The notes below the pieces were generated by a model. That model saw nothing but the letters and a program-made list of their open reading frames with translations, was not told the DNA's origin and searched no databases. Source: Gemmatimonadota bacterium (lineage in GTDB: Bacteria; Gemmatimonadota; Gemmatimonadetes; Gemmatimonadales; GWC2-71-9). Taken from it: a DNA stretch of 64,000 nt. A program made the position numbers and the translations under genes. Of this stretch, positions 6,160-62,106 are shown one piece after another (position 1 is the first letter of the stretch; each line of letters starts with the position of its first letter). The stretch spans positions 1 to 64,000 of the forward strand of contig QHTT01000074.1 of NCBI GenBank assembly GCA_003220935.1, in the 5' to 3' direction.

Positions 6160-6925
6160 CCCAGGTCGGCTTCTTCCAGTTGGGGTTCCGGAGCAGGGCA
6201 GCCGGATGGTAGGTAACGATAACCGGGATGCCCCGGAACCGGTGGATCTGGTTGCGGAGCGCGCCCAGTGACTGTTTGGTGTTGAGCAGCGTCTGCGCCG
6301 CGGTGCCGCCCATGGCGAGAATCGCGCGCGGCTTGAGGAGGTCGATCTGACGGAACAGGTACGGCAGGCACGCCGCGATCTCGTCGTACTGCGGCACGCG
6401 GTTTTCGGGCGGCCGGCACTTCACCACGTTGCAGATGAACACCTGCTCGCGTCGCAGCTGGATCGCGGCCAGGATCTTGGTGAGCAGCTCGCCCGCCTGG
6501 CCGACGAACGGTCGCCCGGTTTCGTCTTCCACGCGGCCGGGGCCTTCGCCCACGACTACGAGACGCGCATCGCCCGGCCCCTCGCCCGGCACGGTGTGCC
6601 GGCGCCCCTCGCACAGCCGACACTTGGTGCAAGCGGCCACCAGCGTGGCCACAGCGTCGAGCGAGGCCGCCTGCTGCAGCGGATCGGCGCTGAACAGATC
6701 GCCGCCGGGGGGATCGTAGGAGAGGCCGGCCGGGGGAAGCCTGGGATGCGGGATGCGGGATGCGGGATGCGTGGCTGCGGGCGGCGCCGGTGCGGGTGGC
6801 TGCGGCGCCACGCCTCCCGCATCCCGCATCTCGCCTCCCGGCAGTGCCGGTAAAATGACCGGATTGCCGCCGAGCAGCTTCTGCTGTTCCAGGAATTCGC
6901 GCGCCAGTGCCCGCCCGTCGCTCAC
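6125..6925 (-). CDS. Type 4 (Fe-S) uracil-DNA glycosylase
   Basis: A 266-residue family 4 uracil-DNA glycosylase. The catalytic core starts near residue 90 with CTKCRLCEGRRHTVPGEG, then GEGPGRVEDETGRPFVGQAG, the Fe-S ligand-bearing NVVKCRPPENR and the late VTYHPAALLRNP motif. It removes uracil from DNA to start base excision repair. The preceding 80 residues are a Pro/Ala-rich linker encoded partly by a GGGATGC repeat array and are probably disordered. This tail resembles the long N-terminus of DNA-polymerase-related members of the superfamily only in position. It overlaps coaBC by 4 nt. Confidence 0.93.
   Translation of the reverse strand: MSDGRALAREFLEQQKLLGGNPVILPALPGGEMRDAGGVAPQPPAPAPPAATHPASRIPHPRLPPAGLSYDPPGGDLFSADPLQQAASLDAVATLVAACTKCRLCEGRRHTVPGEGPGDARLVVVGEGPGRVEDETGRPFVGQAGELLTKILAAIQLRREQVFICNVVKCRPPENRVPQYDEIAACLPYLFRQIDLLKPRAILAMGGTAAQTLLNTKQSLGALRNQIHRFRGIPVIVTYHPAALLRNPNWKKPTWDDVRIARRLLD
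6743..6841. repeat. GGGATGC tandem words with inverted partner, inside udg
   Basis: About four tandem GGGATGC units (6743-6770) face CCGCATCCCGCATC-type units (6811-6841) on the other arm, separated by a GC-rich 40-bp centre. It is read in frame in the disordered N-terminal linker of the uracil-DNA glycosylase. A second GGGATGC array lies at 41906-41971 outside genes. Confidence 0.7.
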
Positions 6926-22124: not shown

Positions 22125-22218
22125 GTGGTGGAGGTTGTGGAGGTTGTGGAGGTTGTGGAGGTCCGTCCAGCCGTTCCCCACCTCCACCATCCTCCACAAC
22201 CTTCGCGACCTCCACCAC
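22125..22218. repeat. TGGAGGTTG tandem words with inverted partner
   Basis: About four tandem 9-bp units of TGGAGGTTG (22125-22160) face CCTCCAC-type words (22188-22218) on the other arm. It lies in the spacer between the sigma and TetR genes. A similar TGGAGG inverted array lies at 45853-45940 after the prolyl oligopeptidase gene. Confidence 0.75.
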
Positions 22219-43706: not shown

Positions 43707-45872
43707 ATGATGCGCCCACACAACGGTTTTCTCAACCCGGGGGTGCTCCTGACAGGCATGCTGCTCGGCGGGGCCGCCCCAGCGGCGTCCAGCCAAACGA
43801 TCTCATACCCGCCGGCGCGCAAGAGCGACGTGGTCGACGATTACCACGGGACGCGGGTGCCGGACCCGTACCGCTGGCTGGAGGATTCCGACTCGCCCGA
43901 AACGCGCGCGTGGATCGAAGCCGAGAACCAGATCACCGCATCGTATCTGGCGCAGATCCCCGAGCGCGCGACGATCCGGCAGCGGCTCACGCAGCTCTGG
44001 AACTATCCCAAGTACGGCGCCCCGTTCCACAAGGCGGGACGGTACTTCTTCTTCAAGAACGATGGTCTGCAGAACCAGTCGGTGCTCTACAAACAGGCCT
44101 CGCTCACCGCCGATCCGCAAGTGCTGCTCGACCCGAACCTCTTTTCCGAAGACGGCACCGTCGCGCTCTCCACGCTCGCGGTGTCAGAGGACGGGCGGCT
44201 GCTCGCCTACGGCACGTCGGCGAGCGGCTCGGATTGGGAAGAGCTCCACGTGCGCGACATCGCGGCGGCGCGCGACCGGTCCGATCACCTGCGCTGGGTG
44301 AAGTTCTCCGGCGCGTCGTGGACGCGCGACGGCCAGGGGTTCTTCTACAGCCGCTACCCTGAGGTGGCGGACAAGGCGCTGACGAGTGTGAACCGCTTCC
44401 AGAAGGTGTATTACCATCGCCTTGGTAGCGACCAGACGCAGGACGTCCTGGTGTACGAGCGTCCCGACCAGCCGGACTGGGGGTTCAACGCCGAGGTGAC
44501 CGATGACGGCCGCTACGCCGTGCTCCACGTCTGGCTCGGCACCGACCGCCGCAATCGGGTCTACTACCTCGACTTGAAGAGCCCCAAGCGCCCCCGGGTC
44601 ACGGGCGAGGTGGTCCGACTGCTCGACGATTTCGACGCAAGCTATGGGTTCATCGGCAACGATGGGCCGGTGTTCTACTTCCTCACCGATCTCGCCGCAC
44701 CCAGGAAGCGCGCGCTGGCGATCGACACGCGGCGCCCGGACCGAGCGCGCTGGCGCGAGGTCATTCCGCAAGGCGAGGACGTACTCGAGGGCGTCCGGAT
44801 CATTCACAATATGTTCGTCGCAAACTACATGCACGACGCCCACTCGCGGCTGCGGCTGTTCGCGCTCGACGGGCGACCGCTCAAGGACATCGATCTCCCC
44901 ACGCTTGGTGCGGTGGCCTCGATCAGCGGCGAGCGTAAGGACGACAAGATGTTCTTCGCGTTCACGTCGTTCCTCTATCCCACGACGATCTTTCGCTATG
45001 ACTTCACAAGCGGCGCGACGAGCGTGTTCAAGGCGCCCGCGCTCGACTTCGATCCGTCGGGCTACGAAACGAAGCAGGTGTTCTACACGAGCAAGGACGG
45101 CACGCGAGTCCCAATGTTCATCACTCACAAGAAGGGAATCAAACTCGACGGGACGAACCCGACCTATCTCTACGGTTACGGCGGGTTCAACATCAGTCTC
45201 ACGCCCAGCTTCTCGGTGAGCCTGCTGGCGTGGCTCGAGATGGGTGGCGTCTACGCGATGCCGAACCTCCGGGGCGGCGGAGAGTACGGTGAGGATTGGC
45301 ACCAGGCAGGCATGCACGAGCAGAAGCAGAATGTCTTCGACGATTTCATCGCCGCGGCGGAGTATCTCATTGCTCAGCGCTACACGTCCCCGGCGAAACT
45401 CGCGATCGGCGGCGGCTCGAACGGGGGGCTGCTGGTCGGGGCGGCGATCACGCAGCGTCCCGAGCTGTTCGGCGCGGCACTGCCGGCCGTCGGGGTGATG
45501 GACATGCTGCGGTTCCACAAGTTCACGATCGGTTGGGCGTGGGTGACCGAGTACGGCTCGGCGGACAGCGCGGCGCAGTTCCCTTATCTGTATAAGTACT
45601 CGCCGTTGCACAACATCAAACCCGGCACACGGTATCCGGCGACCTTGATCACCACCGCTGACCACGACGATCGCGTGGTGCCCGGGCACTCGTTCAAGTT
45701 CGCCGCCACGATCCAGGCGGCGCAGGCGGGCCCCCAGCCGGTGCTGATCGAGATCGAGACCAAAGCCGGGCACGGCGCCGGCAAGCCCACGAGCAAGATC
45801 ATTGAGGAGCAGGCGGACCGGTGGGCGTTTCTGGTGAAGAACCTGGGAGTGGAGGCTGGTGGAGGTCGGTGA
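43707..45872 (+). CDS. Prolyl oligopeptidase family serine peptidase (S9A)
   Basis: A 721-residue prolyl oligopeptidase with an N-terminal export-like segment (LNPGVLLTGMLLGGAAPAAS). The propeller starts with PARKSDVVDDYHGTRVPDPY. The alpha/beta-hydrolase domain carries the nucleophile in GGSNGGLLVGAA (about residue 571), the Asp in DHDDRVVPGHSFK and the His in KAGHGAGKPTSK. It cuts short peptides after proline, probably in the periplasm. It is divergent from the RNase E/G gene across 231 nt, which holds no other gene. Confidence 0.95.
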   Translation: MMRPHNGFLNPGVLLTGMLLGGAAPAASSQTISYPPARKSDVVDDYHGTRVPDPYRWLEDSDSPETRAWIEAENQITASYLAQIPERATIRQRLTQLWNYPKYGAPFHKAGRYFFFKNDGLQNQSVLYKQASLTADPQVLLDPNLFSEDGTVALSTLAVSEDGRLLAYGTSASGSDWEELHVRDIAAARDRSDHLRWVKFSGASWTRDGQGFFYSRYPEVADKALTSVNRFQKVYYHRLGSDQTQDVLVYERPDQPDWGFNAEVTDDGRYAVLHVWLGTDRRNRVYYLDLKSPKRPRVTGEVVRLLDDFDASYGFIGNDGPVFYFLTDLAAPRKRALAIDTRRPDRARWREVIPQGEDVLEGVRIIHNMFVANYMHDAHSRLRLFALDGRPLKDIDLPTLGAVASISGERKDDKMFFAFTSFLYPTTIFRYDFTSGATSVFKAPALDFDPSGYETKQVFYTSKDGTRVPMFITHKKGIKLDGTNPTYLYGYGGFNISLTPSFSVSLLAWLEMGGVYAMPNLRGGGEYGEDWHQAGMHEQKQNVFDDFIAAAEYLIAQRYTSPAKLAIGGGSNGGLLVGAAITQRPELFGAALPAVGVMDMLRFHKFTIGWAWVTEYGSADSAAQFPYLYKYSPLHNIKPGTRYPATLITTADHDDRVVPGHSFKFAATIQAAQAGPQPVLIEIETKAGHGAGKPTSKIIEEQADRWAFLVKNLGVEAGGGR

Positions 45873-45940
45873 ACGATGGTGGAGGTCGTCCCATGCCCTC
45901 CACCATCTTCCACCGACCTCCACAACCTCCACCAACCTAG
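45853..45940. repeat. TGGAGG word array with inverted partner
   Basis: GGTGGAGGTCGG-type words (45853-45885) face CCTCCACC-type words (near 45896-45940). The array covers the end of the prolyl oligopeptidase gene and the spacer before the convergent acyl-CoA dehydrogenase. It shares its TGGAGG word with 22125-22218. Confidence 0.6.
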
Positions 45941-47159: not shown

Positions 47160-47241
47160 GGGGAATATAGCCGCAAGCCGCAAGCCGTTAGCCGCAACGT
47201 CGGGTCGTTATCGAGCTGCTTGCGACTTGCGGCTTGCGGCT
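47160..47241. repeat. CGCAAGCC tandem words with inverted partner
   Basis: GCCGCAAGCCGCAAGCC words (47169-47190) face TTGCGGCTTGCGGCTG words (47221-47241), able to form a hairpin in the spacer between the acyl-CoA dehydrogenase start and ppc end. It could act as a transcription barrier. Confidence 0.65.
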
Positions 47242-51845: not shown

Positions 51846-53122
51846 ACGGGCCCCGGCGCATTGGCGTTGGAGGTCCTCACCCCCTGTCCCCCTCTCCCTG
51901 CGGGAGAGGGGGGACTCTGGACGTTCCCCCTCTCCGGAACGGAGAGGGGGTCAGGGGGTGAGGATCGCCGCGCCCCGACCACGCGGTCGGCCGCTTCCGC
52001 CAGGGCGTCGGCGGTGATGATGGGCAGCCCACTTTCGCTGAGAATGCGCCGGCCCTCTTCCACATTCGTCCCCGCGAGCCGCACGACCAGGGGGACGGGA
52101 ACCTGGACTGCGCGGACCGCTTGCACCACGCCCTGCGCCACCCAGTCACAGCGGTTGATGCCGGCGAACACATTGACGAGTATCGCCCGGACGTTCTTGT
52201 CCGAGAGCACGAGGCGAAATGCCGCGGCGACGCGATCGGGCGAAGCGCCGCCGCCGATATCGAGAAAGTTGGCCGGCTCGCCGCCGGCGTGCTTGATCAT
52301 GTCCATCGTCGCCATCGCGAGCCCGGCCCCGTTGATGATGCAGCCGATGTCACCGTCCAGGGCCACGTAGTTCAACCCGTGCTCGGCCGCTTCGGCTTCG
52401 CGCGGATCTTCCTGGGCGTAATCGCGTAGCTCGACCACGTTGGGCCGACGGAACATCGCGTTGTCGTCGAAGCTCATCTTCACGTCGAGTGCGAGCACCT
52501 GACCATCCGCCGTCACGACGAGCGGGTTGACCTCCACCATGGTCGCGTCCAGCTCGCGGAACGCGCGGTAGGCGCCGAGCAGGATGGCCACGGCCTGGCT
52601 CACCTGCGGCGGCGCGAGCCCCAGCCCGAACGCGAGCTCCCGTGCCTGAAACGCCTGCATCCCGACTGCCGGCTCCACGACCTCGCGCAGGATGGCCTCC
52701 GGCTCGCGCTGGGCGATCTCCTCGATCTCCATGCCGCCGTGCGGGTGTGCCACGACGACGATGCGCTCGCGCTTGCGGTCGAGCACGAGGCCGACGTACA
52801 ACTCGCGCGCGATCGGCAGCGCCTCTTCGACCAGGACGCGATGCACCGGCAGGCCATCCGGTCCCGTCTGCATCGTCACCAGTGTCGTGCCGAGCAGCTC
52901 CTTCGCCGCCCGCCGCACGTCGACGTCGCTGGCGCAGAGCTTGATGCCGCCCGCCTTGCCGCGCGCGCCGGAATGGATCTGCGCCTTCACCACCCACCGG
53001 CTGCCCCCGATCTCGGTCGCACGGTACACCGCCTGGTCGGCGCTGTACGCGACGCCGCCTTTGGGGACACGGACGCCGAAGCCCGCGAGCAGCTCTTTGG
53101 CCTGGTATTCGTGGATGTCCAT
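51842..53122 (-). CDS. mtkA: Malate-CoA ligase (malate thiokinase), beta subunit
   Basis: A 426-residue ATP-grasp beta subunit starting [20 protein letters not shown], with [18 protein letters not shown] near 46, [20 protein letters not shown] near 197 and [18 protein letters not shown] near 284. Together with mtkB it makes malyl-CoA from malate, CoA and ATP. The C-terminal 40 residues ([13 protein letters not shown] through [13 protein letters not shown]) are absent from relatives and are encoded by a palindromic CCCTCTCC element (51873-51964), apparently an insertion that extended the protein. Confidence 0.86.
51873..51964. repeat. CCCTCTCC-type palindromic element at the mtkA end
   Basis: Inverted words CACCCCCTGTCCCCCTCTCC / GGAGAGGGGGTCAGGGGGTG with a second GGGAGAGG / CCCTCTCC pair between. 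It is read in frame as the Pro/Gly/Arg-rich C-terminal extension of the ligase beta subunit, including the segment [11 protein letters not shown]. Confidence 0.75.
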
Positions 53123-58747: not shown

Positions 58748-59980
58748 ATGCAAACCCCGCTAGGCGCCGTTCAGACCGCACAGTGGAGCTGGATTCTCCA
58801 GACCGTGTGGGGCTGGGTCTGGGGCGGCCTCTCCTGGATTGTCGACTGGCAGGCGAACGTGTTCCAGTTCGTCCTTAGCGGTGGCTCCTTCTGGGGGACG
58901 GTCGGCAAGTTTCTGTTCCTGTTTTTCCCGGCGACGGTGGTCGTGGCGGGTGTGTGGGGAACGATGGTGTCGCTCTACACGATCCCGTTCCGGTCGGGCC
59001 GCGGCCGGTTCCTCGCTGCGATCCTGATGTGCTGGTGGGACGCCGTGCGCATGGCCTGGTTCTACTGGTTCGGCCTCGTGCGCTTCCTCTTGGTATTCGT
59101 GGGCTGGATCTGGGGTTTGCGCCGGCTTGGCGTGTCGTTGATGTGGCGCACCCTGAAGAACCTGGTCACCTCACCCTTCGCCCTGCTCGATTCGACCTCG
59201 CGCCAGCCGGGCGTGCCCTGGATCGCATTCGTCCTGCTCGTGTTCTGGTCCGCGATCGAGGCGACGATCTTCACGTTCACGCTGCGTCCGACGATGGCCG
59301 AGCTGCTCGCGGACCTCACGGGCTTCCAGGTGAACCCCCTGGCCCTCGTTGTGATCCTGTGGTTCTTCCTGTTCATCATCATCGGGGGCAGCTTCGCGTG
59401 CATCCAGGTGCTGAACGATGCGATCAAGAGCCGAGCGATTGGGCAGATCGTTTCGATGGTCCTGGTCGAGATCACGGTCGCCCTGTTCGAGGTGCTGTTC
59501 CTGTACCGCGAGCTGATCGACGCCATCACGCCGTGGCTCGCCCAGCAGGGGATCGAGCTGGGGGTGGTCGGGACGCTGGGGCTCGCGATGCTGGGGTGGG
59601 TGGGCGTGCGCGGCATGACCTGGTTCCTGTTCGGGCGGTTCGGGACGCCTGCACTACTCGCCATCCTGGGAAGGAAGGCGATGGAGGGACAACAGGGAGC
59701 GGCGCGCCCGAGCGCGGCGGCAGACCTGGAATTCTGGCGTGGACCGATCAACGCCCTCAAGGCGGAGCACGAGTGGTTCAAGAAGGAGGCCCAGCACCTC
59801 ATGGAGCTCTTGACCCTGCCGGTGCTGCAGCTGGTCGCCGGCGGGTTCAACTTCTTGGTCGTTGTCATCATGGGCAAGCCGCACTTCAATCTGCCGTTCC
59901 GGTCCCTGGACCAGGTTCTCCACAGCACGCCGATCTTCCTGAGCGGCAAGACCAGCACGGTCGAGGGAGGTGCGTCATGA
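58748..59980 (+). CDS. Multi-pass membrane protein partnered with a vWA lipoprotein
   Basis: A 410-residue protein with about eight hydrophobic helices (for example FLFLFFPATVVVAGVWGTMV, LVVILWFFLFIIIGGSFACI and VVGTLGLAMLGWVGVRGMTW) and a cytoplasmic helical linker (INALKAEHEWFKKEAQHLME, near 347). Trp-rich N-terminal helices are unusual. I do not recognise the family. It is coupled (ATGA) to the vWA gene and follows a clear promoter. The pair may form a membrane complex that senses or anchors something through the vWA domain; this is inference. Confidence 0.7.
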   Translation: MQTPLGAVQTAQWSWILQTVWGWVWGGLSWIVDWQANVFQFVLSGGSFWGTVGKFLFLFFPATVVVAGVWGTMVSLYTIPFRSGRGRFLAAILMCWWDAVRMAWFYWFGLVRFLLVFVGWIWGLRRLGVSLMWRTLKNLVTSPFALLDSTSRQPGVPWIAFVLLVFWSAIEATIFTFTLRPTMAELLADLTGFQVNPLALVVILWFFLFIIIGGSFACIQVLNDAIKSRAIGQIVSMVLVEITVALFEVLFLYRELIDAITPWLAQQGIELGVVGTLGLAMLGWVGVRGMTWFLFGRFGTPALLAILGRKAMEGQQGAARPSAAADLEFWRGPINALKAEHEWFKKEAQHLMELLTLPVLQLVAGGFNFLVVVIMGKPHFNLPFRSLDQVLHSTPIFLSGKTSTVEGGAS

Positions 59981-60732
59981 GGCGTCGCGTCGCGGCACTC
60001 GCGCTGGCGTTCAGCGTCGTGGCGTGCTCGCCGTCGGAACGGGCCGGGCCGCCCCGGTCGACGCTGGTGATCGGGTTGGACATCAGCGGCTCGTTCCGCC
60101 ATAACCCGAGCTTCAGTGGGGCGATTGAGTTCGCGGCCATCTACATCTACGGTCACCTGAACGGTCTCGGCGGACTGCAGCCGAACACCGCGATCTTCGT
60201 GGGGGAGCTGGGCGGGGAGCGACCGGGGCAAGCCAAGGTGTTCCATCCCATCCAGGATCTGTCGGGCAAGTCGCCCGACCAGATCGCGGCCGATTTGCGG
60301 GGGTGGTTCCCCCAAGAGGACCCGATCACCGACTTCAACGCCTTCTTCCAGCGTGCCGCCATGCACGTGCGGCGCAACAATCTGGTCCTGGCGCCGCTCA
60401 ACGTGGTGCTGTTCTCCGACGGCGAGCCGGACTATCCGAGTGCCGGCCGCGTCTCGTCGGACGACAAGTACAAGCGGGTGGACATGAGCGCGCTCGAATA
60501 CTTGTCCCGCAACGTGACCGTCCGCCTGCTCTACGCCGCCCCGCCCATCGCGCAGCTGTGGGAGCGCAAGGTCCCGCGGAAGCGCGTGCGCCTCTGGACA
60601 CAGGACGCGGACGTCATGCGCGGCTGGCGCCGCCACATGTTGGACGGCGTGCCGATGGAGAGGCAGGACTCACTCTGGTCCTGGGTCCAGAACGTGGTCG
60701 ACGTGCGGGTGCGGCGGGAGCGGGTGCTGTAG
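59977..60732 (+). CDS. vWA-domain lipoprotein
   Basis: A 251-residue protein with a lipobox signal peptide (VAALALAFSVVACSPSE). A von Willebrand A-like domain follows: VIGLDISGSFRHN near 33 carries the metal-site DxSxS motif, and NVVLFSDGEPDYP near 140 is the usual second motif. vWA domains bind proteins through a metal ion. It overlaps the membrane gene by ATGA and ends convergently with a hairpin repeat. The function is unknown, but a partner role to the membrane protein is likely. Confidence 0.75.
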   Translation: MRRRVAALALAFSVVACSPSERAGPPRSTLVIGLDISGSFRHNPSFSGAIEFAAIYIYGHLNGLGGLQPNTAIFVGELGGERPGQAKVFHPIQDLSGKSPDQIAADLRGWFPQEDPITDFNAFFQRAAMHVRRNNLVLAPLNVVLFSDGEPDYPSAGRVSSDDKYKRVDMSALEYLSRNVTVRLLYAAPPIAQLWERKVPRKRVRLWTQDADVMRGWRRHMLDGVPMERQDSLWSWVQNVVDVRVRRERVL

Positions 60733-60747
60733 ACGAGACCGTGCGAT

Positions 60748-60820
60748 AGACGAGACCGCCGGGGTCTCCCTTCGCGACCAGAATACGCAGTCGCTCCGGG
60801 AGACCCCGGCGGTCTCGTCT
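60748..60820. repeat. Conserved-core hairpin, copy 1
   Basis: Perfect 23-bp inverted arms (60748-60770 and 60798-60820) surround a 27-nt core (60771-60797). In the core, GCGAC and GTCGC form a second stem around an 11-nt loop ending AATACGCA. It abuts the stop codon of the methyltransferase gene. Copy 2 is at 61628-61698. Confidence 0.85.
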
Positions 60821-61620
60821 TACCCCTGCTCCACAGCGTTAACCCACGTGGACGGGTCCACGTCCCCGTGAGGGACCAACGCCCTCCAGAGCTTGTAGCG
60901 TAGCTTGGCGGCGCCCCGCAGCTCTCGTCCCCGCTCGGACAGCCGGATGAGTCGCGTCGCGCGACGCGCCAGCGTGCGGCGCCTGTCGCGAAAATACGCC
61001 GAACTGCCGTCAGCCGGTCGGTATTGCGCCCAGCCGATCGATCCGCAGAACCCGGCCGGCCCGTAGCGGTCCGACCCCAACACGTCCTCCACGAACACGC
61101 GAATCGGGCCCGCGAAGTTGTGCAGCACGTCGTGGAATGCCACAACTCCGCCCGGAGCCAGGTGCGGGGCGAACAGGTCCAGGTCCTGCTTCGCGCCCGG
61201 GTAGGTATGGTCGCCGTCGATCCAGAGGAAGCGGATTGGCCGGCTCCAGCCGCGCGCGAGATCGCGGGAGAACGTGCGATGCACCTCGACGTGCTCGCTG
61301 AGGCCGGCCCGGGCGAGGGTCTGGAGAAAGTCGTCGAACGACGACGACTGGTCGCCGAGGCTCGGATCGGTGCTGGATGGGGCGGTGTGCGGGTCCACCG
61401 CCACGACCTTGCCGAGGCTGTACCGGGCGACGATGGACGCGAGCCCCACGGTCGACTTGCCCTTGAAGCTGCCGATCTCCAAGATGACGCCCTGGCCTGG
61501 GGTGCAGGCAGCTGCGAGGGCGAGGAACCGGGCCTCACGCTCGGTCAGGAAGCCGGGGGCGACTCGGACGCGCTCCCACGCTTCGTCGGCGGCGGACCGG
61601 AAGTCTGGCGGTAATGTCAT
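60820..61620 (-). CDS. Class I SAM-dependent methyltransferase
   Basis: A 266-residue methyltransferase from the ATG at 61620. The SAM-binding motif is LEIGSFKGKSTVGLASIVAR near 46, with KVVAVDPHTAP near 71, FLWIDGDHTYPGAKQDLDLF near 129 and VVAFHDVLHNFAG near 155. This layout matches the Methyltransferase_24 group of small-molecule or sugar methyltransferases. The C-terminal 60 residues are Arg-rich and helical. It is a lone gene bracketed by the two conserved-core hairpins; copy 2 lies 8 nt before the ATG and leaves no Shine-Dalgarno. Substrate unknown. Confidence 0.85.
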   Translation of the reverse strand: MTLPPDFRSAADEAWERVRVAPGFLTEREARFLALAAACTPGQGVILEIGSFKGKSTVGLASIVARYSLGKVVAVDPHTAPSSTDPSLGDQSSSFDDFLQTLARAGLSEHVEVHRTFSRDLARGWSRPIRFLWIDGDHTYPGAKQDLDLFAPHLAPGGVVAFHDVLHNFAGPIRVFVEDVLGSDRYGPAGFCGSIGWAQYRPADGSSAYFRDRRRTLARRATRLIRLSERGRELRGAAKLRYKLWRALVPHGDVDPSTWVNAVEQG

Positions 61621-61627
61621 GGACGAT

Positions 61628-61698
61628 GCGAGCCAGCCGGGGGGCTCCCTCCGCGACAAAAATACGCAGTCGCTACGGGAGCCCCCCGGCTGGCTCGC
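61628..61698. repeat. Conserved-core hairpin, copy 2
   Basis: Perfect 22-bp inverted arms (61628-61649 and 61677-61698) around a 27-nt core (61650-61676) that matches copy 1 at 23 of 27 bases, in the same orientation. The arms differ from copy 1 except for the innermost CTCCC/GGGAG. It lies between the bacilliredoxin stop and the methyltransferase start. Confidence 0.85.
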
Positions 61699-61707
61699 GA
61701 CGGCCCG

Positions 61708-62106
61708 TCAGGCGCAGTACCGGTCGAACGCCGCGGTCAGGTCTGCGGCGATGTCTTGCGCCGCCCGCCCTTCGATGTTCTTCCGCTCGAGCATGAACAC
61801 CAGCTCGCCGTCCCTGAACAGGGCGATCTGGGGGGACGAGGGCTGATACCCGGTGAAATAGCTCCGCGCCCGGGCGGTCGCGTCGGCGTCCTGGCCGGCG
61901 AACACGGTAAGCAATTGCGTGGGCCGCTTGGCGTGCTGGATCGCCAGCGCCGCGGCGGGACGCGCGTTGCGCGCCGCGCAGCCGCATACCGAGTTCACCA
62001 CGACGAGCGCGGTTTCTCTGGTCGTGCCGAGCACTGCGTCCACGTCTTGCGCCGTGCGCAGCTCCTGGAAGCCCAAGCGAGTGAGCTCCTCGCGCATCGG
62101 CTGCAC
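61708..62106 (-). CDS. Bacilliredoxin (BrxA/BrxB, YphP family)
   Basis: A 132-residue protein. It has the family's CGC active site in VVNSVCGCAARNARPA near residue 41, with thioredoxin-like LTVFAGQDADATARARSYF near 66 and IALFRDGELVFMLERKNIEG near 93. In Firmicutes such proteins remove bacillithiol from oxidised proteins; outside that group the thiol partner is uncertain. It is divergent from the Ser/Thr kinase gene and followed by hairpin copy 2, which may terminate it. Confidence 0.92.
   Translation of the reverse strand: MQPMREELTRLGFQELRTAQDVDAVLGTTRETALVVVNSVCGCAARNARPAAALAIQHAKRPTQLLTVFAGQDADATARARSYFTGYQPSSPQIALFRDGELVFMLERKNIEGRAAQDIAADLTAAFDRYCA

Follow-up and report, generated by a model that had tools for sequence, protein, structure and literature searches.

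Short dispersed hairpins of soil Gemmatimonadetes share a tip sequence and carry arms local to each site

Two hairpins at a methyltransferase locus

The window (the whole stretch of DNA that was analysed, 64,000 nt) contains two hairpins, HP1 and HP2, which lie on either side of a methyltransferase gene in the following arrangement.

59977..60732, plus strand: gene with a DxSGS (VWA-like) motif, neighbour of HP1; the VWA resemblance is by eye only
60748..60820, plus strand: HP1, 73 nt, with perfect 23-bp arms at 60748-60770 and 60798-60820; covariance model score 88.0 bits
60771..60797, plus strand: HP1 tip, TTC-GCGAC-CAGAATACGCA-GTCGC-TCC
60820..61620, minus strand: class I methyltransferase (PF13578) flanked by the hairpins; neighbouring gene, not part of the element
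61628..61698, plus strand: HP2, 71 nt, with perfect 22-bp arms at 61628-61649 and 61677-61698; covariance model score 91.4 bits
61650..61676, plus strand: HP2 tip, TCC-GCGAC-AAAAATACGCA-GTCGC-TAC
61708..62106, minus strand: brxA/DUF1094-type gene (PF06491), neighbour of HP2

Both the presence of two perfect-armed hairpins at these positions and the similarity of their cores, as claimed by an earlier sequence-only reading of this DNA, were borne out: the tips are identical at 23 of 27 bases and have the same orientation. The HP1 tip comprises a 5-bp inner stem, an 11-nt loop and an internal loop of 3 nt × 3 nt, and its 27 nt correspond to nine codons. The description of the outer arms as unrelated holds for the outer ~12 bp but not for the innermost ~10 bp, which follow a loose consensus (GGGG-N-CYCNC). 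HP1 starts 16 nt past the stop codon of the upstream plus-strand gene, which has zero Pfam or NCBIfam matches, and its last base falls within the stop codon of the methyltransferase (60820-60822, minus strand). HP2 lies 9 nt past the brxA stop codon (minus strand) and just upstream of the likely ATG of the methyltransferase (61620, minus strand). As the core pattern occurs twice in the window and in none of 100 shuffles of it, and as reversed-pattern controls for the core search gave no match in the whole of this genome (G000), HP1 and HP2 are not chance. A direct repeat, TAGACGAGACCG(TGCGA)TAGACGAGACCG, adjoins HP1 at window positions 60731-60760; in it, HP1 outer-arm sequence is duplicated upstream, the stop codon of the plus-strand gene included.

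The sequence-only reading had treated the hairpins as bracketing the methyltransferase, and a single gene flanked by two hairpins, whose conserved structure and variable arms resemble the logic of integron attC sites, might indeed mark the boundaries of a recombination cassette that mobilises the enclosed gene. The gene orders of relatives argue against this. In G001 and G004, the methyltransferase stands between the same neighbours (plus-strand gene, methyltransferase, brxA) with neither hairpin intact, HP2 being missing at the brxA/methyltransferase junction of both; the methyltransferase is also found in G030; and in G044, G091 and G095 an HP1 orthologue lies between the end of the plus-strand gene and brxA where the methyltransferase is absent. 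Moreover, the other copies of the hairpin are mostly single, and the part that is conserved is the tip and not outer boxes. The methyltransferase loci without intact hairpins thus largely refute the attC-like cassette, which we regard as highly improbable; the methyltransferase was rejected as a cassette, and the bracket (METHYLTRANSFERASE) is coincidental, one of its hairpins being old and the other younger.

Distribution and anatomy of the hairpins

The idea of a mobile or structured element was to fall if neither this genome nor its relatives held further copies of the core, and it survived, many copies being found. Allowing up to two mismatches, the core GCGAC-NNN-AATACGCA-GTCGC matches G000 at 17 places (14 forward, 3 reverse), all 17 of which have long paired arms, a few with a small bulge. 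Copies of a relaxed core, GCGAC-N6-ACGCA-GTCGC, also occur in the genus's four other genomes and in additional genera of the same family; beyond this family, the order yields only a few relaxed-core matches, which have different loops and unpaired arms. The covariance model returned at least 19 rows in G000, at least 13 in G001, at least 18 in G004, at least seven in G003, at least four in G002 and a few in other genera, some rows being one hairpin seen on both strands.

A GTDB-wide scan yielded 57 loci. Arm pairing reaches 14-20 of 20 at 44 of these, which lie on soil Gemmatimonadetes contigs including one labelled Rokuibacteriota; the remaining 13, with 5-11 of 20 arm pairs, represent background. 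GTDB matches beyond the Gemmatimonadetes were rejected as chance or coding matches on their unpaired arms (5-11 of 20), as were viral contigs as carriers, in which four core-like matches had no paired arms. As far as tested, in comparisons of genomes that are incomplete metagenome assemblies, the element is confined to one family of soil Gemmatimonadetes. The contig labelled Candidatus Rokuibacteriota (QHSI01000046.1, locus L200) is 97% identical to the L114 locus of G000 and is probably a mis-binned Gemmatimonadetes contig.

Across copies, the consensus of the loop is AA(A/G)A(A/C)(T/G)ACGCA, and a 9-nt loop (AAGCACACA) marks a minor class. Outward from the loop follow an invariant 5-bp stem (GCGAC/GTCGC), a 3 × 3 internal loop (TNC/TNC), a semi-conserved stem (GGGGNCYCNC/GNGRGNCCCC) and about 12 free base pairs; the spacer between the arms measures 27 nt. 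Rfam gave only matches below the curated gathering threshold, mainly to animal microRNA models that fit the long stem, and no published description of the element was found in the literature searched, whose coverage of subscription journals is thin.

Arms are local to each site and do not travel

Variation of the arms with pairing kept, the other point on which the sequence-only reading had staked its structural claim, was found both across copies and at orthologous sites. Arm covariation amounts to 0.664, compared with 0.157 (s.d. 0.016) after shuffling and about 0.1 in slid controls. In 1957 non-orthologous pairs, the outer 13 nt are identical at a mean of 4.5 positions and at a maximum of 10, which is like column shuffles, and nine or more matches occur in 1.6% of non-orthologous outer arms versus 1.3% of column-shuffled ones. 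The HP2 arm has no match elsewhere in the G000 genome above the reversed-pattern control. What the copies have in common is therefore the tip, the outer stem being local to each site.

Occupied and empty sites in relatives support the mobile-element reading. The copies found in one species only are L108_3675 (absent from G001-G004), L117 (absent from G001, G002 and G004), L123 (absent from G000, G002 and G004) and HP2 (absent from G001 and G004). Exact recurrence of the 21-nt core means that new copies must arise from existing ones. Losses with scars were also seen, and some of the "insertions" may be deletions in the compared relatives; L122 in G000 and HP1 in G001 look like deletion scars. 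An origin of the arms by inverted duplication of the target flank, suggested by the HP1 site of G001 and by valS of G002, was rejected: both are deletion derivatives by their looks, given HP1-like hairpins at the former site in G044, G091 and G095 and a G002 ValS that is shorter than hairpin-free ValS. The cleanest insertion, L108_3675 compared with G003, also speaks against flank duplication, the empty site being without arm sequence.

Copies that are short, palindromic, dispersed and lineage-specific might also represent a classical MITE or REP that brings its own terminal inverted repeats and depends for movement on an IS200/RAYT-type (HUH) transposase of the host, with the old copies diverged. 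REPs and REPINs, which are associated with RAYT transposases, are likewise small dispersed bacterial palindromes in extragenic space, and REP stems are conserved in sequence. Most REPs carry a GTAG/CGTC tag at one end (PMC3733652). Here, arms are unique and no such tetranucleotide stands beside the hairpins; terminal inverted repeats travel with their element, but the arms of lineage-specific copies match those of no other copy, and no target-site duplication was seen at the copies. The analysis brought no mobilising protein to light: Y1 transposase genes are found throughout the five genomes of the genus, yet just as much in many relatives that lack the element, and as candidate mobilisers they do not discriminate. 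A MITE or REP of this kind is accordingly quite unlikely.

Paired arm changes and tip inversions at orthologous sites

Alignments of orthologous hairpins, in 16 groups, show 80-95% identity in most flanks and 80-100% in most tips, with arms that often agree at just 11-16 of 22 positions. Between sister species (the pairs G000/G003 and G001/G004, assigned from flank identity alone), arm changes comprise 59 double changes that are Watson-Crick, 11 double changes that are not both Watson-Crick and 30 one-sided changes. The 874 inner pairs divide into 812 Watson-Crick, 12 G-T, 22 A-C and 28 other pairs. With fewer G-T than A-C pairs, the counts do not favour a route through RNA wobble intermediates on the core strand, although this test is limited in that both strands may be transcribed.

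In six of the 16 orthologous groups the tip is inverted between species, with the arms retained. At L114 and L121, for example, the arms are identical at 22 of 22 positions and the tips are opposite, a case that L200 extends in both flanks. Since the 27-nt spacer is a multiple of three, flipping of the tip keeps the reading frame. Two further sites have arms that would fit template switching: at L150 in G003, the right arm reaches an inverted copy of the adjacent gene's end (TGTAG), and at L123 in G001, both gene ends are now mutually complementary when compared with the empty sites.

Homogenised arms and an inverted spacer are the hallmark of template switching by polymerases at inverted repeats (PMC8604942), and such switching has been demonstrated to create and repair hairpin stems (PMC8794818). 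The hairpins studied here display what is expected of template-switched inverted repeats, namely paired arm changes without wobble intermediates and an inverting spacer. They share arm homogenisation and spacer inversion, coding sequence included, with quasipalindrome correction and template-switch mutation at inverted repeats (PMC8794818, PMC8604942), which represent, however, a mutational mechanism and not an element, and give no account of how one tip spreads to many sites. In addition, reported spacer inversions alter 2-5 bp (PMC8794818, PMC8604942), whereas here a 27-nt tip inverts repeatedly. The "selection on structure" that the sequence-only reading had invoked is not required, as DNA template switching yields perfect arms without selection. 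More generally, caution is called for where covariation and compensatory changes are treated, as is usual, as proving a functional RNA, since both can arise with no selection on RNA.

Placement at gene ends and within genes

Of about 60 copies, 28 have convergent genes on either side and one has divergent genes, and for most the distance to a stop codon is 0-25 nt; these counts rest on a gene caller written for this analysis and count orthologous copies separately. Concentration at stop codons, mainly of convergent genes, is also expected of a transcription or replication boundary element. The hairpins could therefore be functional gene-end elements, that is, bidirectional terminators or transcription or replication barriers with a protein-bound tip and stems that are free to vary if paired, and such a role would suit stems as strong as these (RNA folding of HP1 and HP2 gives -61 to -67 kcal/mol on either strand) as well as a tip whose sequence, unlike that of the arms, is kept across genera. 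Nevertheless, we find a gene-end function unlikely. Orientation is unbiased at co-directional sites (17 co+ versus 15 co-, in-gene copies included), the tip flips, and no excess of wobble pairs is present; neither strand has a T-run behind HP1 or HP2, and many orthologous gene ends have no hairpin. The unbiased orientation, the flipping tip, the wobble counts, the missing T-runs and the in-gene copies likewise disfavour a strand-specific form of the protein-binding RNA hairpin, and the specialised terminator, that had been proposed for HP1 and HP2.

Copies inside genes cannot be terminators at all. There are four in-gene sites, in frame and open: in valS (valyl-tRNA synthetase), in ilvB, where the hairpin lies between the N and M domains of acetolactate synthase, in a trpE/pabB-type gene, where it lies between the two annotated domains of the enzyme, and in one gene of unassigned identity. 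In G003, valS (L222/L262) appears broken inside the hairpin tip by a deletion and frameshift, which is either a real lesion or an assembly error at the palindrome. L172 and L175 are GCGAC hairpins of opposite orientation arranged in a head-to-head tandem, with their cores 76-79 nt apart.

A dispersed palindromic repeat with probably renewed arms

We consider it probable, at roughly 70%, that HP1 and HP2 are copies of a short dispersed mobile palindromic repeat resembling the Rickettsia palindromic elements (RPE), of which the tip spreads and the arms are local and template-switched. The spreading part would be the hairpin tip, GCGAC-AA(A/G)A(A/C)(T/G)ACGCA-GTCGC, with the flanking TNC and the loose GGGGNCYCNC/GNGRGNCCCC. 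Replication template switching, by which one arm would be copied onto the other, may keep the arms near-perfect and renew them, and a double template switch would invert the spacer. The element may be selfish or neutral and would persist where an insert is tolerated, that is, behind stop codons and in protein linkers. Conservation of the tip across genera at orthologous sites could, instead of selfish spread, reflect selection for a host function.

The multiplication of such small elements and the upkeep of perfect long stems are both open questions in the field. The present data separate two processes: the tip spreads, and the stems stay behind to be rebuilt site by site. Species alignments in which arms change pairwise and tips are inverted amount to a natural record of template switching in bacterial genomes, essential enzymes included, from which the mechanism can be directly tested.

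In Rickettsia, short palindromes are already known to spread and to reside within protein genes. Copies of an RPE have a common sequence along the element. RPEs (Ogata et al. 2000, via PMC2229807, PMC6649704) are likewise dispersed, both intergenic and in frame in conserved protein genes, and are lineage-restricted, frame-compatible and without a known mobilising enzyme (PMC2229807, PMC6649704); they measure 105-146 bp (PMC2229807) and lose repeat identity over time (PMC6649704). In contrast, the hairpins studied here share the tip alone, with site-unique arms that stay near-perfect and with tips that turn over between orthologous sites. With the RPE class the element has in common a dispersed palindrome in one lineage and in-frame copies, but not a shared sequence that includes the arms; because the outer arms of non-orthologous copies are not shared, we have not filed it as an RPE.

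In Nostoc and its relatives, the small dispersed repeats (SDR) may offer a parallel, being very short, mobile-looking stem-loop repeats of several families with one fold. They were reportedly described by Elhai and colleagues in 2008 as units of 21-27 nt with no long site-specific perfect arms, and are not known to show tip inversion. Perfect inverted repeats within protein genes, gained and lost between species, are also found in the mitochondria of Nematomorpha, where template switching was proposed (PMC6649704); these are palindromes of animal mitochondria and are not known to have a tip sequence in common.

Other palindromes at the same sites

In other genera, the valS position is taken by a second tip family, GCAGC-AGCCCAGCGGGC(A/G)CCC-GCTGC, which has the TNC/TNC frame as well and is inverted once, in G022; it parallels the several SDR families that share one fold.

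valS in relatives: L242-L262 (e.g. L245, L246, L248, L250, L251), also L326-L331; GCAGC tip family

The general frame pattern CCCTNCGCNNC..GNNGCTNCGGG gave mostly background outside the known tip families. More tentatively, we suggest a minimal mobile element consisting of a tip of only ~27-47 nt, which might enter or seed a local palindrome while its stems would be endlessly renewed from the DNA of the site by replication template switching, so that neither terminal repeats nor target duplications would travel. A frame and hot spots, for example one valS position, would then be common to two or more unrelated tip families (GCGAC..GTCGC, GCAGC..GCTGC). We hold this to be possible and not the likelier outcome.

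At several sites, other species carry unrelated hairpins, such as ones built of the tandem words GGAGGCG or TAGACGAG, and such sites are thus general palindrome hot spots. The window itself contains long hairpins of tandem words (GGGATGC, GTGGAGG, AGCCGCA and similar) at 6743-6839, 22125-22218, 45859-45923, 47169-47241 and 51874-51964, and tandem-word hairpins of such types take the place of the GCGAC type at orthologous sites in other species. A third palindrome, TGTAGGGGCGCAGCATGCTGCGCCCCTACA, occurs at L308 (G000) and L313 (G001), two unrelated sites that hold a GCGAC hairpin in other species.
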